Made by a program: the position numbers and the translations under genes. 64,000 nucleotides of DNA from Leptolinea sp. (GTDB taxonomy: Bacteria; Chloroflexota; Anaerolineae; Anaerolineales; Anaerolineaceae), in assembly GCA_012798535.1 (NCBI GenBank), contig JAAZMZ010000023.1, positions 62,001 through 126,000 on the forward strand, given 5' to 3'. The notes beneath the pieces were generated by a model. That model was given only the letters and a program-made list of their open reading frames with translations. It searched no databases and was not told the DNA's origin. This document shows positions 17,968-31,223 of this stretch, in pieces. How positions within the stretch are numbered: the first letter of the stretch is position 1; each line of letters begins with the position of its first letter.

Positions 17968-18007
17968 GTGCTGAGTTTCCCTGATGCTGATTTTACTTGA
18001 AAAAGTT

Positions 18008-18023
18008 TGGCACAGAACTTGCA
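18008..18023 (+). promoter_or_regulatory. Sigma-54 (-24/-12) promoter upstream of rpoN
   Basis: TGGCACAGAACTTGCA: GG and GC separated by exactly 10 nt; near-consensus; 46 nt upstream of the rpoN ATG. Confidence 0.75.
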
Positions 18024-18068
18024 CTTATAAACCTTAACGGATATACTGATCGGAAGGTTAGGGATGCT

Positions 18069-19478
18069 ATGTTTCAAACACACCAACAATCTCTTCGACC
18101 ATTAACGACGGCGCATCTCGCCCAGACCATGACTCTTTTGAGTCTTACGGCGGATGAACTAAGGGAACAGATTGAATCAGAATTGGCGTCAAATCCGGCG
18201 CTGGAATTACTAGAAGAACGCCGCTGTCCAACCTGTCACCGCCTGCTTCCTCCCAGAGGTGCCTGTCCAACCTGTAGTTCACCAAAATCAGAAGAAATCG
18301 AAGAACCGATTGTATTTGTTTCACCAAGAGAAGATTTTAACTTCAGTGGCGGAATGACCGGTGAGGATATGCCTGAGGATAATTATTCCTCAACAGTTGA
18401 AGACCTTCCTACATTTGTTCTGCGACAGATCGCCTCTGAATTGGATAATTCGGAACGAACCATAGCGGCGTACTTTCTCACACATCTGGATGATGATGGA
18501 TTATTGACGATTCCACTGATAGAAATCGCACGTTATTTCCATGTACCACTTTCAAAAGTGGAAGAAATACAGAAGAAAATCCAGAGAGCCGAACCCTACG
18601 GAGTAGGTTCCTGCTCACCCCAGGAAGCTTTACTGGCACAACTCGATCTTCTTGAAGAAAGTCGTGAAATACCTCCTCTGGCACGCTCTATCATCGAAAA
18701 GGAAATGAGTTTGCTATCGCGTCATCAATACGCCGAACTGGCAAGGGCATTCAAGGTTAGTTTGCGAACAATTCATCAAACTGTAGCTTTCATCACCGAA
18801 AACCTTAATCCATTCCCGGCCAGATCGCACTGGGGTGATATGCGGCAATCTACGGAGATGCCTCCACAGGTTTACCATCGTCCAGATATTTTGATGAGTT
18901 TTCTCAATGATGATCCATCAAAACCACTGGTAATAGAAATTATCATGCCTTTAAATGGTACTTTACGAGTAAATCCGATGTTCAGATCTGCGATCCATGA
19001 AGCCGACCAGGACAAGAAAGATGATTGGAAAAATGATCTTGAGCGGGCTTCTTTGTTTGTTAAATGTTTGCAGCAACGAAATCATACAATTACACGATTA
19101 ATGCATCGGGTGGCTGCGTTACAACGCAATTTCATCTGCAGAGGCGAGAAATATCTTAAACCTGTAACCCGAGCCCAGTTATCCACAGAATTAGGTGTGC
19201 ATGAATCAACAATTTCACGCGCCGTCGCCAACAAAGCCGTTCAATTACCCAATGGTCGGATCATCCCTCTGGCAATGTTTTTTGACCGCTCATTGAATGT
19301 AAGACAGGTTTTAAAGGAAATCATTGAGAAAGAAGCTCATTCACTTAGCGACACTGAGATTTCTGAGTTATTATCAGAACAGGGCTATCAAGTCGCACGG
19401 AGAACTGTAGCCAAGTATCGAGCGATGGAAGGAATCTTGCCCGCACACCTAAGGAGACCTGCACCCGGCGTGGGATGA
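18069..19478 (+). CDS. rpoN: RNA polymerase sigma-54 factor RpoN, with an extra Cys4 zinc-ribbon-like segment
   Basis: Q-rich region I (LAQTMTLLSLTADELREQIESELASNPALELLE), RpoN box ARRTVAKYR; insert CPTCHRLLPPRGACPTC; start at MFQTHQQSL. Confidence 0.9.
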   Translation: MFQTHQQSLRPLTTAHLAQTMTLLSLTADELREQIESELASNPALELLEERRCPTCHRLLPPRGACPTCSSPKSEEIEEPIVFVSPREDFNFSGGMTGEDMPEDNYSSTVEDLPTFVLRQIASELDNSERTIAAYFLTHLDDDGLLTIPLIEIARYFHVPLSKVEEIQKKIQRAEPYGVGSCSPQEALLAQLDLLEESREIPPLARSIIEKEMSLLSRHQYAELARAFKVSLRTIHQTVAFITENLNPFPARSHWGDMRQSTEMPPQVYHRPDILMSFLNDDPSKPLVIEIIMPLNGTLRVNPMFRSAIHEADQDKKDDWKNDLERASLFVKCLQQRNHTITRLMHRVAALQRNFICRGEKYLKPVTRAQLSTELGVHESTISRAVANKAVQLPNGRIIPLAMFFDRSLNVRQVLKEIIEKEAHSLSDTEISELLSEQGYQVARRTVAKYRAMEGILPAHLRRPAPGVG

Positions 19479-21421
19479 GTGATGCCAATTTCAACAATCC
19501 GTTAAATCCTGCGATCAGTCGTTTACGAATTCCAGGCATTCAAGAATTTTCATTTTTATTGAATGCCTTCAGTGAAGCGGCGATAGTTTTGGATTTAAGG
19601 ACTTTATTTATCTATCAATCAAACCCGGCTTTTATTCAACTTACGGCTTTTTCACAAATTGAATTGGCCGGATTATCCGTGGTAGATATTCTCCCTGATT
19701 TCTCACAGGAATTCTTTATTTCCGGAGAACCACTAACCGCCAGCCTGATGCGCCGGAAGAGAAATCCGATCCCGGTGATCGTTCAGGGTACAATTTTGAA
19801 TGCAGAGAGAACCTGGGGGTTATTGACTTTTATTCCCGAGGCAAAACACGCCGAATCGCAGGGCGCCTGGCAATCCGACCTGTTCTCAGGATTAATGGAT
19901 CTGGCGACAATACGCGAAGAACCGGATCTTGAAAAGTCGTTACTGAAAGGTTTTGGGATAACGAAACTGATCACCCGGGCTAAGAAGATCTGTATCTACA
20001 AAGCTGACAGCCAGCAACCTCGCCTAATCCGTATCTCTTTCGACAAACAATCCGAGATATTTCCTGAAATATTGCCATCAAGTGACCTTGTTCAGCTATC
20101 CACAGCCTCCATGTGGATTCCAGGCAGGAAAGTGGTTGCAGAGGTACAGCGCGCAGCCCTAGTTGCCAATCTCAGCTACGTGGCAACCATCCCGCTGGGA
20201 CAGAAAAATGCCCTGTTCGGATTACTTGTTGTGGGTGATCAGGAAGGCCAACCGTCTGAACGGCTGGAAAATATTCTATATGTCCTTTCTGCTCACCTGA
20301 CGGCGGCATTACAGCATTTTATTCTGATCGATAATCTCCGCAAAGAAGTGCAAAACCAAAAACTGACAGCGGATATTCGTGGAACAGTTTTTGAACACAG
20401 CCAGGAAGGCATCCTTTTCATTTCACGTGAATTGCATATTCTCGAAATCAATCCCGCTGCCGAATGGATGCTGCAGTACGCCGCCTGGGAAGTGAAAAAT
20501 CAACCGGTGGCAAACGTGATAATTGGACCAGATCGGATGATGACCGTACTAGAATCATGCTTACAAGGTATACCCACGCATAATATGGGTAATGTATCCG
20601 TGCACCGGCGAAACGGGCAATCGTTCCCGGCGCATATCCAGGTCATTCCGGTGATGAAAGAAAAGGAACTAATCGGAATTGTTATGTTCATCCGGGATAT
20701 CAGCGAACATGAACAGATACGTCTGCGCAGCCAGCAGCTGGAACAACGGGCACTACTGGGAGAATTCACAGCGATCTTTGCCCACGAGGTACGTAATCCA
20801 ATCAACAATATTTCCACAGGGCTGCAGTTGATTTCCGCTCGCTTGCCGGAAGAAGATGTCAATCTGGATGTTTTGAATCGTATGCTCGGCGATTGCACAC
20901 GGTTGGATCATTTGATGGAATCCATTCTCGCTTTTTCGAAACCGCAGGAATTACGGCTCGAAAAAATCGAGATCGATAAATTTCTACAACGGATCCTTGA
21001 CCGGTGGCGTCCCAGATTGGCCCGGGTAAACGTGCAACCGTTCTTTTCGGCTGCGCAGGATCTGCCATCGATCAATGGAGATCCAAGAGCTTTGGAACAG
21101 GTTTTTACTAATCTCATTTCCAATGCCATTGATGCTATGAGCCAAAATGGCGGCACATTGGCTGTTCATGTCAATCCGGATCATTCATTACCTAACCGGC
21201 CGCAGGTTGAGGTAAGCGTATCGGATAATGGCCCTGGAATTCCCGATGAAATAAAAGAGAGGATGTTCGAACCGTTCGTGACGACAAAATCACACGGTAC
21301 CGGTCTCGGATTGGCCATTACAAAAAGGATAATAACTGCCCATCAGGGAAATATCACGGTAAAATCCTTCCCGGGGGGAACTATTTTCCACGTTTATTTA
21401 CCTGCCAGCAGCGGAGAATGA
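19475..21421 (+). CDS. Soluble PAS/GAF sensor histidine kinase, NtrB-like
   Basis: PAS-like and GAF-like regions, H-box [19 protein letters not shown]-box [41 protein letters not shown]; no evident TM helices; ATGA overlap with rpoN. Confidence 0.82.
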
Positions 21422-21424
21422 AGA

Positions 21425-22594
21425 ATGAGCACAAACGTTTTAATTGTCGATGATGAAGAGAACGCGAGAAGGAATATCGGTGAATATCTTTCTGCAAAAG
21501 GCTATGAGGTAACCGGCGCCGGCACTTTGAAAGAAGCACGGGATATGATCATGAATGGAGTGGGGGATGTCATTCTGCTGGACGTTCAATTGCCTGATGG
21601 ATATGGTCCTAATCTGTTATATGAGGTAGATTCACTACCGGCGAGACCGCCGATCATTGTGATCACGGGGTATGGTGATATCGAAACGGCTGTGGATGCC
21701 ATGAAAAATGGTGCACATGATTTTCTAACAAAACCTGTGAATATGTCTCAATTGGAACAGTCCATCCTCAGAGCGCAGGAGATAGTCTCCATGCGTCGAG
21801 AGCTGGCTTATCTGCGGCAGAAACAGAAGAATATAGATTTTGTTGTAGGAAATAATCCAAAAGTCAAAACAGTCATTGAACATGCTCACCGGGCTGCACA
21901 GGCTTCCGTTTCTGTTCTGATCACAGGAGAGACGGGCACTGGAAAAGAAGTGTTGGCGCAATTCATCCATAAATCTGGACCTCGTGCGAACAAGCAGTTT
22001 GTTGCCATCAATTGCGCTGCCATCCAACCCACCGTGCTTGAATCTGAATTGTTCGGTTACGAAAAAGGCGCGTTCACAGGCGCGGATGTAAGGAAACACG
22101 GTCTGATGGAAATAGCTGACGGGGGTGTATTGTTCCTGGATGAAATATCAAAGATGCCACTGGAGATCCAATCAAAACTGCTGCGAGCTGTAGAAGATAA
22201 AGCCATTCGCCGGGTTGGAGGAACGACAACGAACAAGGTGGATATTCAGGTAATATCGGCGTCTAATCGAGACCTATTAAAAATGATGAAGGATGGGGAG
22301 TTCAGAGAAGATCTGTATTACAGGCTAAAAGTTGTCGATCTTGATCTTCCGCCATTGCGTGAGAGAAAAGAAGATATTCCTGAACTCGTCGGTTTTTTCA
22401 TGAGAGAGCAAAACGCACGGCAAGGCTTGAATATCACCGATATAACTCCAAGAGCCATGCAGGCATTGATGGCATACGATTGGCCGGGTAACATTCGCGA
22501 GCTTAATCACGATATTGAACGCGCCATGTTATTTTGTGATGATCCGGTATTAGATATCAACCATCTGCCTTTGGATCTTCAAACAGTAAAATAA
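21425..22594 (+). CDS. NtrC-family sigma-54-dependent response regulator (receiver + AAA+, no C-terminal HTH)
   Basis: Receiver domain (IVDDEENARRN, VILLDVQLPDG), Walker A GETGTGKE, GAFTGA loop, GVLFLDEISKMP; ends right after the AAA+ lid. Confidence 0.88.
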   Translation: MSTNVLIVDDEENARRNIGEYLSAKGYEVTGAGTLKEARDMIMNGVGDVILLDVQLPDGYGPNLLYEVDSLPARPPIIVITGYGDIETAVDAMKNGAHDFLTKPVNMSQLEQSILRAQEIVSMRRELAYLRQKQKNIDFVVGNNPKVKTVIEHAHRAAQASVSVLITGETGTGKEVLAQFIHKSGPRANKQFVAINCAAIQPTVLESELFGYEKGAFTGADVRKHGLMEIADGGVLFLDEISKMPLEIQSKLLRAVEDKAIRRVGGTTTNKVDIQVISASNRDLLKMMKDGEFREDLYYRLKVVDLDLPPLRERKEDIPELVGFFMREQNARQGLNITDITPRAMQALMAYDWPGNIRELNHDIERAMLFCDDPVLDINHLPLDLQTVK

Positions 22595-22600
22595 AATCCG

Positions 22601-22616
22601 TGGCATGTAAATTGCA
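22601..22616 (+). promoter_or_regulatory. Sigma-54 (-24/-12) promoter of the effector operon
   Basis: TGGCATGTAAATTGCA: GG-N10-GC; immediately downstream of the activator gene. Confidence 0.8.
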
Positions 22617-22652
22617 ACAATCCTCCTGTAGATAGTATTCAGGAGGATTGTT
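22616..22652 (+). repeat. Perfect 13-bp inverted repeat over the transcription start and Shine-Dalgarno
   Basis: AACAATCCTCCTG-N11-CAGGAGGATTGTT; the second arm contains AGGAGG and abuts the ATG at 22653. Confidence 0.95.
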
Positions 22653-22973
22653 ATGTCCATATTCTCTGTCAATGATATTTTCCTGGCGATGGCAGTTTTC
22701 CTTTTCATCATCGGGATTTTTTCGATTGCATCAGGGATTTTTGTGCTGGTAGCCAAAATCGCGGGCGGTGATCTGCGAACGATTGCAAGGCAGACAACAG
22801 CTCTAGCCCAAAAAGGATTAACAGAGGAGATCAGCGGTCTGGTGGGGAATGCCACGGCATTAATCGTGGCGATCAATGATCTGGTTAAAACGGCCTCAGG
22901 AATAGGTGTGTTTCTCATCATGGTGGGAATTGTTGCGATCGGAGTCGCTCTTGGAATTCTTACCCAGCTATAA
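22653..22973 (+). CDS. Small membrane protein with two TM helices flanking an amphipathic segment
   Basis: 106 aa, hydrophobic N- and C-termini; strong AGGAGG Shine-Dalgarno. Confidence 0.75.
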   Translation: MSIFSVNDIFLAMAVFLFIIGIFSIASGIFVLVAKIAGGDLRTIARQTTALAQKGLTEEISGLVGNATALIVAINDLVKTASGIGVFLIMVGIVAIGVALGILTQL

Positions 22974-23001: not shown

Positions 23002-25356
23002 ATGCAACCTGCGGATTTGGTTACGAAGATTAACCGTATATTTGGTGAAGAAGATGCTGCTTTATTGATCTCGGCTCTACGACAAGATGCGCTGGTTTGG
23101 AATGCCATTCAAGATGAAACCCTGGCGGTGGGTTTAACGCAAGAATCAAAAGCACGATTGAATGAGTGGACTCCCGCGGCGATATTTTGTCTGTCTGAGA
23201 ATATCCCGTCACCGGCTGATTTAAAGAATCTGAGCCTGGGACTAGATGGAAATATCCGTCAGTTATCCATACAAAACTATGAGACTGTTTGCCGTGGAAA
23301 TAAACCTCCAAAAGATTTGAAACAGGCAGGCTATGCCGCCCTGGCATTACGTGAGCGGCGAAAGCTGGTAAAAAGCTGGGATGGCTTGGCTGAAGAAATG
23401 GAATCCAATCAGGCAATATCCGAGCAGGAAGTCATCAGTGTATGGGGCACTGTGATTTCAATTCTGGCTGGCATCATTTCCGATGAAAATGGACTGTTCG
23501 AGGAAATTCTTGGATTACCGGGTAAAGTAGGCAGAGAACTTGTGAGCCATGCGATATTGTCACTACCGGTTTCGTTGAAAGAAAAGATCAATGTACTATC
23601 CGGCCTGATGATCAAACTTGATCTGGCAGGTCAAATCGACTGGCTGCAAGCCCTGGCTTTACGGGGTGAAATTCGATTAAGCGAGCAATTGGCAAAATTG
23701 CTGATTGCCAATTCCGCATCCAATCTGTTAAATGGATTTCTGGCAACTGAATTATCCTCTTTGGATTTACCCCAGGTCGCAGCGAAAGCTGTACGACTGC
23801 AACAGGCTGCGACGCTGTATCAACTTGCCGGTAAAGAAATTGAAGCCAATCGATTTCTTAATTCTGCGGCAGATACAATCTCTTACCTCAACACGGGTAT
23901 TCGACTGCAGCAGGCCGGAATACAAAATGTTCTTCCGGAAAAAGAGGGAACAGGGAAAAGAGTATCCGGAGAAGAAATCACTGATAACGTAGCCGGATTG
24001 CAGGGAGAATTGTTACTGGCTGCGGCTGCCGGGAGCAGTAGAATTTCGTCAAAAGGTCTGCCGGGAAAATTCGGCAGATGTTTTCAAGAACTACGAGAAG
24101 CGGGAAAACTTGTCCTATCAGGGGAGTTGGATCGCGCCAGGGGACTGGCGTACCCGGCAATCGAAGCCTTTATGCAATTCATATCTTCGGCAAATTCAAA
24201 CTACAGTCCGAAGTTCCTGATCAATTGGCAGCCGGAAGAATTTGTTGAACTACTGGTTAATTTGAATTACCTGAAAGAAGCGGCTGTGGCGGCAGAGTGG
24301 TTCTTGCGTTATCAACCAACAAATGCTAGATTGCTGGGATTGCTCGGGGATCTTTTCACACGAGAAAATCAGCCGGAGCGGGCAGCAAAATCACTATCTC
24401 TGGCCGTTTCGTTAAATCCGAACGATTCATCGAATCGAAGACTACTGGCAAGGCTGCATGAAACAAACGGAAATTATTCCGGAGCCATGGATGAGTGGAA
24501 GAGGATTGTTGATGTAACCGAGAATTCAAATATCGATGATCAGATGAATCTGGCAAAAACCGCTTATCGCGCTGAAGAGTATAAACAAACCTTCAACATC
24601 TGCAAAACGATTCTGGAGAAAGATCCATTCCACGGGCTGGCCTGTTCCTACTTAGGCCAATCGGCCGCCGTACTGGGTGATGATCAGACGGCAAATGAAT
24701 TCCTGCAAAAATCGGTACTACTGGCACCTGACTCCAGCGAAGTCTGGCTGGCATTATCCCGCTATCAAAAACAAAAAGGTGAATTACAGAAGGCTTACGA
24801 GACTTTACGTTCTGCGTCTGCGTCTTTGCCCGATTCTTCAGAAATCAATCTGGAACTGGCATTAATGAGCATGGAGACTGGCAGACCATCAGAAGCGTTG
24901 CCACATCTGAGACTGGCTGCCACGATCCAACCGGAAAATCTGGAAGTTGCCACTCTGTTGATAAATGCTCTGCTTACTCTGGGGCATCAGGAGGAAGCCA
25001 GGGAATTGTTGGGTAACATTCGGAAACGCTGGCCCGAAGATATCGATCTTGCGAAAACTCACGGTTTATTACTGCAGGATGCCGGACAATATCGGGATGC
25101 TATAGCTCCGTTACAACTCGTTAATCGAAAGAATCCGACTGACGAAGACGCCGCCGTTGGACTTTGCCTTTCACAACTCGAATCAAAACTGGACTCTCTA
25201 GTAGTGGAAGGTAAACCCAGACTAAATATAAATTTGGCAGAGATTGCCCAGATCATTTCCACATTGCTTGGCAAGAATGCCGAATCGATACGCGGACATC
25301 TCATCCTTGGCGCGCTGCAATATGCGATGGGTAATCTTGATAAAGCGTTTGATTAA
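23002..25356 (+). CDS. Large TPR-repeat protein, upstream portion (terminates at in-frame TAA)
   Basis: Multiple C-terminal TPR-like repeats (LARLHETNGNYSGAMDEWKRIV, LGLLGDLFTRENQPERAAKSLSLAVSLNPNDSSN); ends mid-repeat at ...GNLDKAFD. Confidence 0.8.
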   Translation: MQPADLVTKINRIFGEEDAALLISALRQDALVWNAIQDETLAVGLTQESKARLNEWTPAAIFCLSENIPSPADLKNLSLGLDGNIRQLSIQNYETVCRGNKPPKDLKQAGYAALALRERRKLVKSWDGLAEEMESNQAISEQEVISVWGTVISILAGIISDENGLFEEILGLPGKVGRELVSHAILSLPVSLKEKINVLSGLMIKLDLAGQIDWLQALALRGEIRLSEQLAKLLIANSASNLLNGFLATELSSLDLPQVAAKAVRLQQAATLYQLAGKEIEANRFLNSAADTISYLNTGIRLQQAGIQNVLPEKEGTGKRVSGEEITDNVAGLQGELLLAAAAGSSRISSKGLPGKFGRCFQELREAGKLVLSGELDRARGLAYPAIEAFMQFISSANSNYSPKFLINWQPEEFVELLVNLNYLKEAAVAAEWFLRYQPTNARLLGLLGDLFTRENQPERAAKSLSLAVSLNPNDSSNRRLLARLHETNGNYSGAMDEWKRIVDVTENSNIDDQMNLAKTAYRAEEYKQTFNICKTILEKDPFHGLACSYLGQSAAVLGDDQTANEFLQKSVLLAPDSSEVWLALSRYQKQKGELQKAYETLRSASASLPDSSEINLELALMSMETGRPSEALPHLRLAATIQPENLEVATLLINALLTLGHQEEARELLGNIRKRWPEDIDLAKTHGLLLQDAGQYRDAIAPLQLVNRKNPTDEDAAVGLCLSQLESKLDSLVVEGKPRLNINLAEIAQIISTLLGKNAESIRGHLILGALQYAMGNLDKAFD

Positions 25357-28300
25357 TTCAAAGCTGCTGCCGAGTTATCAAAAAATGGCGATGAAGACCT
25401 TCATTGGATTGCTCAGGGAGGTTTGGGGCGGACGGCATTGGCACTGGATAAACCGGAAGTGGCATTGGCCGTTCTCGATGAAGCCACCACGGCAAATCCA
25501 AAGAATATCACTCTGCAAAGATTGCTCGTTCCAGCCTATCTAAAAGCTAATCTCCCGCAGGAAGCATTGATCACTGCCCAGCATGCCCTTGAAATGGCGC
25601 CTGATGATGTCGAAAATCTTGTATGGTATGCGCAGACCATGTTGAATACAGGCAACAGAGAAGAAGCTGTTAAAACCATACGGAAAGCCTCAGATGGATT
25701 AAACGGCGAAGCAGATAGTCTGATCAAACTGGCTGCCCTGGGTATGAATCTGGACGAAAAACATGCGGCGCGGAAGTCATTGATCGAATTGAGTACTTTG
25801 CCGGGAGTAAACCCGGATGACCTGGTAAGAGCATCGCACATTCAAATGCAGCTGGGCGATTTTTCAGGAGCAGGTGAAAACCTTTCACGTGCTATCAGAC
25901 AAACAGAATCATCCAATCCACAATGGTTATTCGAACTGGCCTGCCTGCAGAAAAACGTAGGGGATACCGGGGCAGCTCAGGAGGCTGTAAAACGGGCTCT
26001 TATCGCAGATCCATTATCTTCAGAGAACTGGTTAATCCAGGCGGATATGTTCGAAGAGATGGGCAGACATCAAAGTGCGCTTGAGTGTCTGGAAAAAGCG
26101 ATTGGTTTAATTGGCGATGAGAATCGATCTGCAGAAAAATCTCTACCAGATGAGATGAATTCAATTTTTGCCAGATACAAAGACATTTCCAAAGCTGAAA
26201 TCCATACCAGGTTTTCACACCTGATGTACCAGATCGGCAATCTGACCGGAGCACTGGTACATGCCGAACAGGCTTTGGAATTAGAGCCGCAAAATTTACA
26301 CATACGATTGCTTGCGACTCGTTTGGCTGAAGCTTTGCTTCTTGGCGACCGCGCCTGCACAATTGCAGAATTACCCGACGAACAAGCACAAATTTCAGAA
26401 ACAGAAGAGATCTCTTCCGACGAACGCGATGAAGCCGCAGAAATCCTGTCAATAAAAGCATGTCGTTATCTGGCAGAACAGAAACTGGCCGAAGCGGAGG
26501 AGATTTATCAAAAGATCTGCCGGCTATCACCGAACAGTTTTGTAAAAGAAAACATTGAGATTCGTCTGGCTGCGGCTAATGGAAATTTGAATGAAGTAAA
26601 AGATTTAATCGACAGCCATGTCGTGCAACATGTTCTGAGCAGTAAAAAGGCCAGAAATGATCTCCAATTGAGTGGGATATCGATCGCGGCTGCAGAAGCC
26701 GCCCTGGCCGTAGAAAGATGGGACCTGGCTTTGAAACTGGTCGATCAAATTGTTGCCAGTCATTCCCTGGAGCCGGCTGCTCATCTGGCTTATGCACGTG
26801 CACTTGTGAGAACGGCAGAAGAATACGTGCTGAGAAATGAACTGGGCTTAAAAAAACATCTACCGTCAGGTGACGCTCTTAATGAAAGCCATCAGAACAA
26901 GTTCGAGGCTGAAATCACGGCAGCGGGAAAGGGTTCAACATCAGATGAAGTTTCCCGGTGGGAAAAACGCGGTCAGCTTGTATTTGGAGGAAAAGCCGGT
27001 CTGGAAAAAGTGGCTGCAGATGAGCTGCATAATGAAGAGGATCAAGCAGCCTACCTGCAGGCATTGCGTACAGCTCATCGTATAGACGATGTTATCAGCA
27101 TCGGTGAAAAGGTAGCAGAAACCCCACAAATTCTATTGCAAATGGCGCTGGCCTATGCTGAGAAGAACCCCAGGGTTGGTTTAGATCTTTGCCTGCATAT
27201 GAACGAAATCGCAAAACCATCACCTGTTACACTGGCAGTATCAGCCCGGCTGGCGGAATTGAGTGAAGAAGCCGGTCAGGCTGTGGACTTCTTGAATCAA
27301 GCAATGGAGCAATATCCAGATGAATCGGCCTGGAGAGCCTGGCTGGCTGCATTGCTGGAAAAGCAAAAGGATTTTGATAATGCCACGTATCACCTGGAAG
27401 AGGCCGTAGCTATATCTCCGGATTCTCCTCATAACTGGCAGGCTCTGGGAAAACTCTACATCAAGAACAAACAAAATCATCAGGCTATTCATGCGTTTTC
27501 AAAAGCAGTCGAATTGGATCCACAGAATCCGGATGCCATGCTTTCACTGGCATCTTCCTACCGCGCGGCCGGTGAAATACAGGATGCTCTGGATTGCATT
27601 GATAAGGCCATCGAGTTGAATGTCAGGCCAGAGAATGCTTTCCTGTTAAAGGGGGAGATTTCCCGTGATCTTGGAAATCTGAATGATGCGGTGGAATTTT
27701 CGAAGAGTGCGTTGAAAGCCAATCCCAAGAGCCAGGATGCCTATCTATTCCTTGCCCAGACACAACGTGTTGCGGGAAAAGTGAATGATGCCGTAAACAC
27801 CATTGAGCAAGCCATTAGTACTCTTGGTGCGAATGTTGAGCTGCTAATCGAAAAAGCGAAGATCATACACACCTTCAAAGGTGCGAGGGAAGTGCTTCCA
27901 TTCTTGCAGGAATTAGCTTCCCAGTTTCCAAAGAATGGTGAAATACTCGGTATGCTCGCAAAAGTGATGGCTGAATCTGGTGATCTGATCAATGCTGAAA
28001 GAACCGCACTGGAGAGTCTGAAAATTCAACCTCACCAACCGGACCTCAATCTTTTTGTAGGCAAGATATTGCGGAAATCAGGTCAGCTTGACAAGGCTGT
28101 CCATCATTTTGGTCAGGCTGTTGATCAATCACATCTGGACATTGAAGCTGTTATTGAACTGGCACAGACTCATCAGGAACAGCGGGAATACGAAAAGGCT
28201 CTAGAAGCTTTCCAGATGGCAATCCAGATAGCACCTCGAGATATTCGGGCTTACACAGGTGCTGCTGCTATTTATCGCGAAAGTAAGGATTACAACCATG

Positions 28301-28425
28301 CGGAAGAAATGCTGCGCCGGGCGGCTGAAATAGATCCATCCAACCTGTCTATCCGCCGTCAGTTGGGTGCGGTGGTGGCACTAAACCTGGTACATACTAC
28401 TCAGGAGGCTCAGACACTGGCATGA
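25357..28425 (+). CDS. Large TPR-repeat protein, downstream portion (same frame, after TAA)
   Basis: Frame continues directly after the TAA (FKAAAELSKNGDEDLHWIAQGGLGRTALAL...). Many TPRs (NWQALGKLYIKNKQNHQAIHAFSKAVELDPQNPDA). The ORF track starts it at a TTG at 25423. Confidence 0.75.
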   Translation, partial: FKAAAELSKNGDEDLHWIAQGGLGRTALALDKPEVALAVLDEATTANPKNITLQRLLVPAYLKANLPQEALITAQHALEMAPDDVENLVWYAQTMLNTGNREEAVKTIRKASDGLNGEADSLIKLAALGMNLDEKHAARKSLIELSTLPGVNPDDLVRASHIQMQLGDFSGAGENLSRAIRQTESSNPQWLFELACLQKNVGDTGAAQEAVKRALIADPLSSENWLIQADMFEEMGRHQSALECLEKAIGLIGDENRSAEKSLPDEMNSIFARYKDISKAEIHTRFSHLMYQIGNLTGALVHAEQALELEPQNLHIRLLATRLAEALLLGDRACTIAELPDEQAQISETEEISSDERDEAAEILSIKACRYLAEQKLAEAEEIYQKICRLSPNSFVKENIEIRLAAANGNLNEVKDLIDSHVVQHVLSSKKARNDLQLSGISIAAAEAALAVERWDLALKLVDQIVASHSLEPAAHLAYARALVRTAEEYVLRNELGLKKHLPSGDALNESHQNKFEAEITAAGKGSTSDEVSRWEKRGQLVFGGKAGLEKVAADELHNEEDQAAYLQALRTAHRIDDVISIGEKVAETPQILLQMALAYAEKNPRVGLDLCLHMNEIAKPSPVTLAVSARLAELSEEAGQAVDFLNQAMEQYPDESAWRAWLAALLEKQKDFDNATYHLEEAVAISPDSPHNWQALGKLYIKNKQNHQAIHAFSKAVELDPQNPDAMLSLASSYRAAGEIQDALDCIDKAIELNVRPENAFLLKGEISRDLGNLNDAVEFSKSALKANPKSQDAYLFLAQTQRVAGKVNDAVNTIEQAISTLGANVELLIEKAKIIHTFKGAREVLPFLQELASQFPKNGEILGMLAKVMAESGDLINAERTALESLKIQPHQPDLNLFVGKILRKSGQLDKAVHHFGQAVDQSHLDIEAVIELAQTHQEQREYEKALEAFQMAIQIAPRDIRAYTGAAAIYRESKDYNHAEEMLRRAAEIDPSNLSIRRQLGAVVALNLVHTTQEAQTLA

Positions 28426-31223
28426 ATTCATTATCTGGTTCATCATCGGTTCCGAAAACCTTAAATAACGAGCAATTTTGCCAGTTGTTGGAAAAAGCTA
28501 TCCAGATTCCGCAACCGAGATTTGTGCGTCAGGCGGCAGCAGCCTGGCTGGGTATGTGCCCCGGAGATTTGAAGATTCAGGGATATATGGCAGCCGCTCA
28601 ACTCTTTGAAGGAAAAAAAGAACAGGCTGCCGAGATCATACAGAAAGTTCTTAAGATCGACCCGGAATTTAGAGAAGGTTATGAAGTCCTATTAAAATGC
28701 CTTCCTGAAAACGCATCCTCGCGCGCGGGGATACTTTCGAATATCTATATTCTGGGTGGAAAAATCACTTCTGCTGCAGAACAACCTGAATGGGTGCAAA
28801 ACTTGCGAGCGGCACGCCTATCCTATATCAATCAGCAGGTGAGTACGGCGGAAAAATATCTGCATAAAGCTATTGGCGCGGCAAACGATAATGTGCTCTG
28901 TGCAATTCTACATTTACAAATTACACGCGCAAATTCTGATACACAGGCAGTCCAAAATCTTGCCAGCCTGTATTCCCAACGGTGGCCAGATTGTGTGCTG
29001 TTTTCTTTGTATCTGGCTGAAGCACAGATGGAATTGGGGAGCGAGGTGCTGGCTGTTAACCTGCTTCATGACAGCGCCGCAAAAGACTCCGGTGCGCAGG
29101 TTGCTGTTCGAATCTGGGGCAAGGAATTTCCATATAAATCAATCTGGCCGGAAATCAACAATTTTGAGTTCAATATTCCCGTTCCATCTAGCGTCGCGGC
29201 AATTATGGGATGGAATCAACTGGGTACCGGCGGTGTAACGGAAGCTTCAAAACCAACACCTGTGGAATTGAAAAGGCCAATTCGACCAGAACCAATTGTG
29301 AACAAACCTCCAAGTGTTGAGACTGTATCAACAAAGAAGACGGAAACACCAATCCATTTCCAACCTGTTAACCAATCGAAAGGAACACCAGCCAGTGAAA
29401 AGCCGCATTATGATATCCGAAACCTGTTTAAGCCGGTGAAAATTACCGTCAACACCAGTGGTATGCTGAATGCTGCAGGGAAAGCTGTTTCTACTGTTTC
29501 ATCCATGCTCCAGACCCCAAAAATCGATAAACCGGTTCGGGATGTTCCAATCGCAAAAGTAAAAGAAGAACTGCGGCGTGTAGCAATAAATCTGGATAAA
29601 TCGGGAATAGCCACCTCTGACCACCGCTTTCCGGTGATGGTGATTCTTTCATTGAGGTCCGGATTGGAAAAACAATTTGGACAACAGACATTATCCGTAA
29701 TCGATACTGAATTGAGAACACTGGCAGCGAATATTGGGAAAATGCCTGAATGGAGCGCCAGAGTAATCTACGCGGATGATCCGGACAGTACCGGGAAAAT
29801 TGGGCTTAATCCCGTTGAAAATGGAGATCCCTGGAAGATAAAGCTACTGCTCACAGATCTGGATGGAATTCTGGCGAAAAAGGGCGAAATGATCGGTTCA
29901 CTATTGATCATCGGCGGACCTGAGGTAGTTCCATTTCACCGATTACCAAATCCAACCGATGATCTGGATGACGAGGTATTGTCAGACAGCCCCTATTCGA
30001 CATGTGATTCGAATTACTTTGTGCCTGAATGGTCGGTATCACGGCTCCCCGGTGGAAAAGGACCAGATGCAGGGCTATTGTTGGAGGAAATTAGAAGACT
30101 TAATCAGTCAGTTCAAAATAAGAAGCAACAATTCAAAATTGATTTCCACCTACCGCCATTACCGCTGTTTAGTGTATTTCAAACTCTGTTGACCAGGTAT
30201 CCGGTATTTGGAAATTATCCAATGTTTGGTTATACGGCCGAGATTTGGAAGCGTTCTTCGGAAGAGGTTTTCTTACAGATCAATAAGTCAAAAAACATTC
30301 TGTCTTCACCTCCTCTGAACAGTGATACTGTTCCCGGTATGCAGGCGGTTAGTGCGCCGGTGAGTTATTTTAATCTGCACGGATTGGTGGACTCTTCCGA
30401 ATGGTACGGGCAGCGTGATACTTCCATTACCCAGGATGGACCTGATTATCCGGTTGCCATCAAACCCGATGATCTGTACCGCTCAACTCAGGAAAACGGC
30501 ATAATCTTCAGCGAAGCCTGCTATGGCGGCCATATTTCCGGAAAAGGTGAAGAGGATTCCATTGCATTGAAATTCTTGGCAACCGGATCTGCATGTGTGG
30601 TTGGCTCGACCTGTACTTCCTACGGAGCTGTATCATTGCCACTGATAGGTGCCGATCTGCTAGGTTTTCATTTCTTGAAGCATCTGGATGCAGGAATGTC
30701 GACAGGTGAAGCTCTCTATCAAGCCCGCCTTGATTTCATTCAGGAAATGCAGAAACGGCAGGGCTATTTGGATGGCGAAGATCAGAAAACACTGATCTCC
30801 TTTGTGATGTATGGAAATCCTTTCTCGACTGTAAGAAAGAGCACCAACAATTCAAAAACGATACATCGGTTTACTTTGTCTTCTGAAGTATGTCCAGTTT
30901 GTACGAAAGAATACGAAACAGAATTACCAAAACGCATGGGCGAAGAGACTCTGGCAAAGATAAAACAGGTGGTCGAGCCATATCTTCCTGGTTTGAACAA
31001 TGCGGAAATGCACTATAGCCGAATACACACAGAATGCAGCGGAAAGAATCATTCCTGCCCAACATCAGAAATTCATCTGAAAGGCAAACCCCAGGCTCGT
31101 TCCGGGAAGATGGTCGTATCCATTCGAAAGTCGATCACCAGCGCCAATCGTACCCATCCACATTTCGCGCGGGTTACTCTGGACAGCCGGGGAAAAATGG
31201 TAAAGCTGGCGGTTTCACGATAA
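28422..31223 (+). CDS. Clan CD cysteine peptidase (C25 gingipain/CHAT/caspase-like) with N-terminal TPR-like region and C-terminal Cys-rich domain
   Basis: Putative catalytic His in YFNLHGLVDSSEW (residue 653) and Cys in FSEACYGGHISG (residue 700); SLLIIGGPEVVPFHRLPNPTDD; ATGA overlap with TPR gene. Confidence 0.75.
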   Translation: MNSLSGSSSVPKTLNNEQFCQLLEKAIQIPQPRFVRQAAAAWLGMCPGDLKIQGYMAAAQLFEGKKEQAAEIIQKVLKIDPEFREGYEVLLKCLPENASSRAGILSNIYILGGKITSAAEQPEWVQNLRAARLSYINQQVSTAEKYLHKAIGAANDNVLCAILHLQITRANSDTQAVQNLASLYSQRWPDCVLFSLYLAEAQMELGSEVLAVNLLHDSAAKDSGAQVAVRIWGKEFPYKSIWPEINNFEFNIPVPSSVAAIMGWNQLGTGGVTEASKPTPVELKRPIRPEPIVNKPPSVETVSTKKTETPIHFQPVNQSKGTPASEKPHYDIRNLFKPVKITVNTSGMLNAAGKAVSTVSSMLQTPKIDKPVRDVPIAKVKEELRRVAINLDKSGIATSDHRFPVMVILSLRSGLEKQFGQQTLSVIDTELRTLAANIGKMPEWSARVIYADDPDSTGKIGLNPVENGDPWKIKLLLTDLDGILAKKGEMIGSLLIIGGPEVVPFHRLPNPTDDLDDEVLSDSPYSTCDSNYFVPEWSVSRLPGGKGPDAGLLLEEIRRLNQSVQNKKQQFKIDFHLPPLPLFSVFQTLLTRYPVFGNYPMFGYTAEIWKRSSEEVFLQINKSKNILSSPPLNSDTVPGMQAVSAPVSYFNLHGLVDSSEWYGQRDTSITQDGPDYPVAIKPDDLYRSTQENGIIFSEACYGGHISGKGEEDSIALKFLATGSACVVGSTCTSYGAVSLPLIGADLLGFHFLKHLDAGMSTGEALYQARLDFIQEMQKRQGYLDGEDQKTLISFVMYGNPFSTVRKSTNNSKTIHRFTLSSEVCPVCTKEYETELPKRMGEETLAKIKQVVEPYLPGLNNAEMHYSRIHTECSGKNHSCPTSEIHLKGKPQARSGKMVVSIRKSITSANRTHPHFARVTLDSRGKMVKLAVSR

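Follow-up and report, generated by a model that had tools for sequence, protein, structure and literature searches.

The 64,000-nucleotide window analyzed here (Leptolinea sp., Anaerolineaceae; contig JAAZMZ010000023.1, positions 62,001 to 126,000) contains a gene for a predicted cysteine peptidase of 933 residues, which is the subject of this analysis. Its open reading frame (ORF) is intact and is preceded by genes for the sigma-54 factor RpoN, a histidine kinase, a sigma-54 activator of the NtrC type, a small protein with two transmembrane (TM) segments, and a giant tetratricopeptide repeat (TPR) protein; alaS is a further neighbor. A sigma-54 promoter and a perfect inverted repeat lie ahead of the small TM gene. 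The coordinates of these features are collected in Table 1. The ATG of the peptidase gene lies inside the TGA of the preceding TPR frame, the two sharing ATGA as a first-pass annotation of this DNA had pointed out, and the gap between the two genes was exactly −4 in most of approximately 78 homologous loci.

Table 1. Features of the peptidase locus, in positions of the window.
Feature	Positions	Strand	Details
rpoN, sigma-54 factor	17997..19478	+	AID, core-binding, and DNA-binding domains; PF04552 3.2e-34, PF04963 5e-28
Histidine kinase, PAS/GAF-like domains	19475..21421	+	HATPase_c 9.6e-28, PAS 2.3e-17, HisKA 1.5e-9
NtrC-type sigma-54 activator, receiver and AAA+	21425..22594	+	PF00158 8.4e-69, Response_reg 5.8e-26
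-24/-12 sigma-54 promoter TGGCATG-TAAA-TTGCA	22601..22616	+	exact match; predicted +1 near 22627
Inverted repeat, perfect, 13 bp	22616..22652	+	arms 22616-22628 and 22640-22652; Shine-Dalgarno sequence within right arm
Small protein, two hydrophobic (TM) segments	22653..22973	+	106 residues, conserved central motif
Giant TPR protein	23002..28425	+	1807 codons, in-frame TAA at 25354-25356
TPR-C25 peptidase ORF (predicted)	28422..31223	+	933 residues, ATG start, intact
N-terminal TPR solenoid	28449..29207	+	residues 10-262; AlphaFold2 model, predicted local distance difference test (pLDDT) mostly >90
Disordered linker	29220..29615	+	residues 267-398; pLDDT <50, alignment variable
C25/caspase-fold catalytic domain (predicted)	29619..30857	+	residues 400-812; domain model, and PF01364 in homologues
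His653 (YFNLHGL)	30378-30380	+	putative catalytic dyad
Cys700 (FSEACYGGH)	30519-30521	+	putative catalytic dyad
C-terminal tail	30858..31220	+	lineage-specific Cys cluster and beta module ending -Ser-Arg/Lys/His

When the window peptidase was compared with Pfam, NCBIfam, and the PDB sequences, weak TPR matches alone were obtained, and its assignment to family C25 was hence made through homologues. Relatives of the peptidase were identified in 27 of 249 genomes of the class that were searched. In a scan of named genomes, the single-protein query found no match and an alignment query found 225 loci, of which 80 were examined; going by their record titles, these were all from Chloroflexota, mostly Anaerolineae and Anaerolineaceae. 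The peptidase of Leptolinea tardivitalis shares 73% identity with that of the window, and homologues were also present in Anaerolinea thermolimosa, Longilinea, Levilinea, Bellilinea, Thermanaerothrix, and Ornatilinea. Peptidase_C25 was matched by 15 of the first 22 homologues, and PF01364 by 57 of 70 homologous catalytic domains (best 3.7e-18), while CHAT was matched weakly by 6 of the 70 (best 6.6e-4). A model of the catalytic domain prepared with 70 sequences reached a pLDDT of 90.8 and a predicted template modeling score of 0.90. Its first Foldseek match in the PDB was gingipain R (1cvr; E = 3.0e-11, TM-score 0.59), then gingipain K (1.8e-10), followed by SAVED-CHAT, separase, and Csx29, which bears out the clan-CD caspase fold proposed in the first-pass annotation. 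For the full-length model, the best PDB matches were gingipain K, Csx29 (TPR-CHAT), and SAVED-CHAT. Furthermore, gingipain R2 (RgpB) ranked top in a profile search, weakly at 0.045, and the alignment placed the lead-in LLIVGG.EVVPF...SD.PY opposite VLLVGDHKDIP...SDQVY of this gingipain, consistent with the gingipain-like lead-in recognized earlier.

The putative catalytic residues were found where the first-pass annotation had located them. Among 102 aligned proteins, 101 keep His653, 101 keep Cys700, and all 102 keep Gly654. The sole dyad exception, L046, has lost both residues together (His to Arg and Cys to Gly) and, judged from its sequence, is likely a pseudo-enzyme. Joint retention and joint loss are the pattern expected for a catalytic dyad, and with a caspase fold predicted and the dyad conserved, the peptidase reading stands. 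The dyad-free homologue (L046:9415-11091, + strand) adjoins a very long TPR ORF of 3127 residues that is open at the contig end.

The TPR-like N-terminus was seen as a helical solenoid at residues 16-261 of the full-length model, followed by the disordered linker and an alpha/beta domain (residues 400-800); Pfam matches to TPR in this region were weak for the window protein and present in 12 of 22 homologues. The highest 19-residue Kyte-Doolittle mean of the peptidase was 1.36, at residue 724, which is below the level of a membrane segment or signal peptide and agrees with the intracellular location proposed at the outset. The Cys-rich tail, which had been described as a possible zinc-binding module, is really present, and the cysteines of its CPVC...HTEC...HSCP pattern are kept in the Leptolinea relatives L090-L092. 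In the nearest other genera (L031 and L032), the tail is free of Cys, as it is in 40 of 102 homologues. A zinc module was hence rejected as a defining feature. The extreme C-terminus, in turn, is -Ser-Arg/Lys/His in 98 of 102 homologues. C25 enzymes such as gingipains cleave after Arg or Lys, and for this reason one may speculate that the product-like end acts as an autoinhibitor or results from processing. In L037, L043, and L055, the otherwise fixed -Ser-Arg terminus is extended (SRGGT...), and this extension is possibly a processing site for an Arg/Lys-specific enzyme.

The order rpoN, kinase, activator, TM gene, TPR gene, and peptidase is conserved across Anaerolineae in nearly all loci, including those of other families of the class. 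The last three genes stood in this order in 61 of the 80 named loci, and the full six-gene order was found in 42 of 59 that had enough upstream sequence; in more distant families, an extra CheY-like gene lies ahead of the TM gene. The histidine kinase has no clear membrane segment (highest 19-residue hydropathy 1.69). The activator comprises 389 residues and ends with its AAA_lid (residues 312-386), leaving no C-terminal helix-turn-helix (HTH); almost every one of 45 Anaerolineae loci encodes an activator of 387-407 residues, while the activators of distant families keep HTH_8 (e.g., L041). A homologue of the small 2-TM protein was identified in 61 named loci. This family carries a motif of approximately QT.KLAQKGI.E..GLVGNAS and is encoded by the first gene behind the hairpin described below. 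It has no Pfam family, and it resembles the LBF_4227 family (NF047761) weakly (3.3e-4 over 35 residues, 21 bits against a cut-off of 75). A holin reading of this protein was dropped, the weak match (0.011) of one homologue to a phage membrane protein family being taken as chance. The giant TPR protein is a single ORF of 1693-2096 residues in nearly all relatives. What had been annotated as the upstream TPR gene should be corrected accordingly, since it is one frame of 1807 codons broken by a TAA; its coupling to the peptidase gene is as described above. The position of this TAA encodes Glu in L. tardivitalis and Leptolinea sp. HRD-7; the stop codon arose either by a nonsense mutation of recent date or through an error of assembly.

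The −24/−12 promoter sits 52 nucleotides ahead of the start codon (ATG) of the small TM gene. With no more than one mismatch allowed, such a site was found in 45 of 61 named loci, mostly approximately 52 nucleotides upstream of the start codon, and the reversed control gave 0. In two genomes (G005 and G100), the only exact −24/−12 site precedes this operon. The window genome has five exact sites, against 0 for the backward pattern and approximately 2 expected by chance from a base-composition estimate, and of these five conservation confirmed the operon site only. It encodes one RpoN and one sigma-54 activator, with no further copies. An activator that does not choose promoters by DNA binding fits a cell that holds a single activator. 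Such linkage was also observed for the family as a whole: the peptidase is present in 115 of 123 Anaerolineaceae genomes (62 of 64 high-quality ones), and a sigma-54 activator in 112 of 123, 98 of which have exactly one. All 8 family genomes that lack the peptidase also lack the activator (Fisher P = 1.6e-10, uncorrected for kinship). In the class sample, RpoN occurred in 23 of 27 peptidase genomes and in 13 of 222 others (P = 1.8e-19, again uncorrected for kinship). A mobile defence island is difficult to reconcile with this near-universal, single-copy, and syntenic presence; with PADLOC negative for both the peptidase and the TM protein and the locus syntenic and core, that candidate was rejected.

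The inverted repeat, located after the −12 box and before the ATG, was predicted to fold with a minimum free energy of −20.2 kcal/mol (z = −4.5). Its right arm buries the Shine-Dalgarno (SD) sequence, and its left arm spans approximately −11 to +2 relative to the predicted sigma-54 start. The hairpins of relatives differ in their letters and keep the pairing, with the SD always in the right arm. RNAalifold on a MAFFT alignment of the leaders returned no structure because the arms are out of register, and an arm-swapping permutation was therefore applied to 30 distinct leaders, which had been picked for having the repeat. Own arms paired with a mean of −18.2 kcal/mol and swapped arms with −11.7 kcal/mol, and 0 of 20000 permutations reached the observed mean, kinship being uncorrected. 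In an unselected check, 44 leaders with a good promoter averaged −18.5 kcal/mol and randomly drawn stretches from these loci −9.2 kcal/mol; for 36 of the 44, the value fell under the 5th percentile of the respective locus. The predicted start lies inside the left arm, so the proper transcript would lack most of this arm and leave the SD free. In the leaders, the SD was predicted to be unpaired in 8.7% of read-through RNA versus 60.7% of the sigma-54 transcript; the corresponding probabilities in the window were 0.00008 (0.008%) with the left arm and 0.725 (72.5%) without it. In vivo, the sigma-54 mRNA should hence be translated and the read-through mRNA silenced.

With computational support for the fold, the conserved dyad, the operon and its promoter, the covarying hairpin arms, the single activator, and the joint loss, the reading we favor, with somewhat better than even confidence, is that the ORF encodes a cytoplasmic C25 cysteine peptidase with an N-terminal TPR solenoid, which would work in a sigma-54-locked, membrane-docked TPR-C25 proteolytic complex. 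In such a scheme, the kinase would sense an internal signal and phosphorylate the activator, and this activator, usually the only one of the cell, would open sigma-54 polymerase at the −24/−12 promoter with no enhancer site. The transcript starting within the left arm would carry a free ribosome-binding site, while read-through from the regulator genes would fold and remain silent. We hypothesize that the giant TPR protein is recruited by the small 2-TM protein, itself docked at the membrane, and could serve as a scaffold that binds and activates the peptidase through the TPR domain of the latter. The His653/Cys700 dyad might then cleave cytoplasmic or membrane-bound targets and thereby drive a core program such as stress remodeling, differentiation, or controlled death. 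The double lock of sigma-54 and hairpin suggests that stray expression of the operon is harmful, which favors death, differentiation, or drastic remodeling over housekeeping.

Several observations weigh against this complex. The window peptidase alone has no C25 match in Pfam, and the stop codon in the TPR gene may leave the module impaired in this strain unless it is an assembly error. The hairpin is absent in approximately 9 loci and in the distant families with the leading CheY-like gene. The start sites are predictions from consensus spacing, and both co-occurrence tests and the hairpin permutation ignore relatedness. Finally, 14 of the 112 family genomes with an activator have more than one, and the regulon may be extended by the four remaining exact promoter matches of the window genome; the dedication of sigma-54 to this operon is for these two reasons described as a tendency.

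Among other explanations, it is conceivable, as a tentative option, that the locus is a cell-death or lysis module, in which the 2-TM protein would form a holin-like pore or be the substrate, the peptidase would act as executioner, and a lethal operon would be kept silent by its promoter and hairpin. Sigma-54 together with an SD-burying hairpin is a lock of the type that T4 uses against premature lysozyme synthesis (PMC3014915), the caspase-fold enzyme is fused to TPR, and the hosts are filamentous, multicellular bacteria. Neither the small protein nor the peptidase, however, had a holin, gasdermin, or PADLOC match, and the locus occurs almost universally in the family, as one copy in a constant chromosomal position, which does not resemble a mobile suicide or defence island. 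It appears unlikely that the peptidase is a feedback protease, which would reset the sigma-54 response by cutting either the regulators of its operon or the TPR scaffold. Its tight linkage to and co-loss with rpoN, the kinase, and the activator would fit such a role, as would the cleavage of a sigma-factor inhibitor by Csx29 (PMC10028731), but negative feedback alone does not account for a scaffold of giant size and a membrane protein. We regard as quite improbable that the inverted repeat is an intrinsic terminator or a protein-binding operator rather than a translation lock: a T-run follows the right arm in L090, L126, and L146, but many loci (L098, L102, and L105) have none, the sequence varies among species while the pairing persists, unlike an operator, and the SD is always in the right arm. 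Very improbable is an anti-phage effector of the TPR-CHAT/Craspase kind, since, although the structure search gave Csx29 a like architecture (TPR and then a caspase fold) and Csx29 also works on a sigma-factor pathway (PMC10028731), no Cas gene adjoins the locus, the peptidase has no PADLOC match, the locus is core, syntenic, and vertically conserved, and the catalytic domain is nearer to C25 than to CHAT.

For the favored reading as a sigma-54-locked TPR-C25 complex, comparison with known systems is as follows. The peptidase is similar to family C25 (gingipains RgpB and Kgp; PF01364) in its fold, its His-Cys dyad, and the conserved motifs SD..Y and GDP-L, which align with RgpB. A secretion signal and an Ig-like domain are typical, though not universal, of gingipains, whereas the window peptidase has no signal-like stretch, an N-terminal TPR solenoid, another C-terminal module, and a cytoplasmic sigma-54 operon. 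Csx29 (Craspase) and separase likewise have a helical-repeat N-terminus followed by a caspase-fold peptidase. In contrast to Csx29, which is linked to an extracytoplasmic function (ECF) sigma factor, the present peptidase is linked to RpoN, and no Cas7-11/gRAMP or Csx30 was found among its neighbors. Activators without a DNA-binding domain, such as FlgR and CtcC, constitute group 5 (PMC7175178). They share the receiver and AAA+ arrangement without HTH, and they control flagella and chlamydial late genes, whereas the present activator is predicted to control a peptidase operon. For gene e (lysozyme) of T4, the ribosome-binding site is hidden in long early transcripts, and transcription from late promoters begins within the hairpin (PMC3014915). 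Again, a hairpin covers the SD in the long mRNA here, with a start inside it predicted from the −12 spacing alone; the differences are its chromosomal location, the sigma-54 promoter, and the family-wide conservation. Operons of a bacterial gasdermin with a caspase-like protease also come to mind, but no gasdermin gene adjoins the protease here, and the membrane gene encodes the 106-residue 2-TM protein without Pfam match.

In the open-access literature, outside of which most subscription papers lie, we found no paper that treats peptidase C25, TPR, and caspase together in bacteria and no description of the whole module combination. The architecture of the peptidase is new for a family that is itself known, and group 5 activators and hairpin locks are each known singly. 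Anaerolineaceae are widespread filamentous fermenters, and the module is nearly universal in them. Sigma-54 has been noted only "in some Chloroflexi" (PMC3162934), and a sigma factor that serves mainly one peptidase operon is unusual. The hairpin, with a left arm that overlaps the sigma-54 start region, would represent a lock of the T4-lysozyme type on the chromosome and throughout a family, which hints that stray expression is costly. The module thus offers a testable handle on core roles of caspase-fold peptidases inside bacteria, apart from mobile defence. A bolder idea, which we advance with reserve as doubtful on present evidence, is that Anaerolineaceae keep sigma-54 essentially for a single operon that encodes one membrane-docked caspase-fold execution complex of small TM protein, giant TPR scaffold, and TPR-C25 peptidase. 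A hairpin embedded in the promoter would double-lock this operon against any accidental synthesis, and the complex would amount to a core, built-in death or differentiation program of filamentous bacteria.

Two further observations were made in the genomes searched. Some genomes of the class carry divergent second homologues of the peptidase outside the operon (L056:3769-8625, − strand; L057:6621-8471, − strand; L058:3436-5262, + strand), one of which sits in an ORF of 1618 residues. Of the other exact −24/−12 sites in the window genome, those in L059 and L060 lie immediately ahead of dnaN and a lipoprotein gene, respectively, and those in L062 and L063 fall inside lipoprotein-like ORFs; these could be members of a wider regulon or chance matches.

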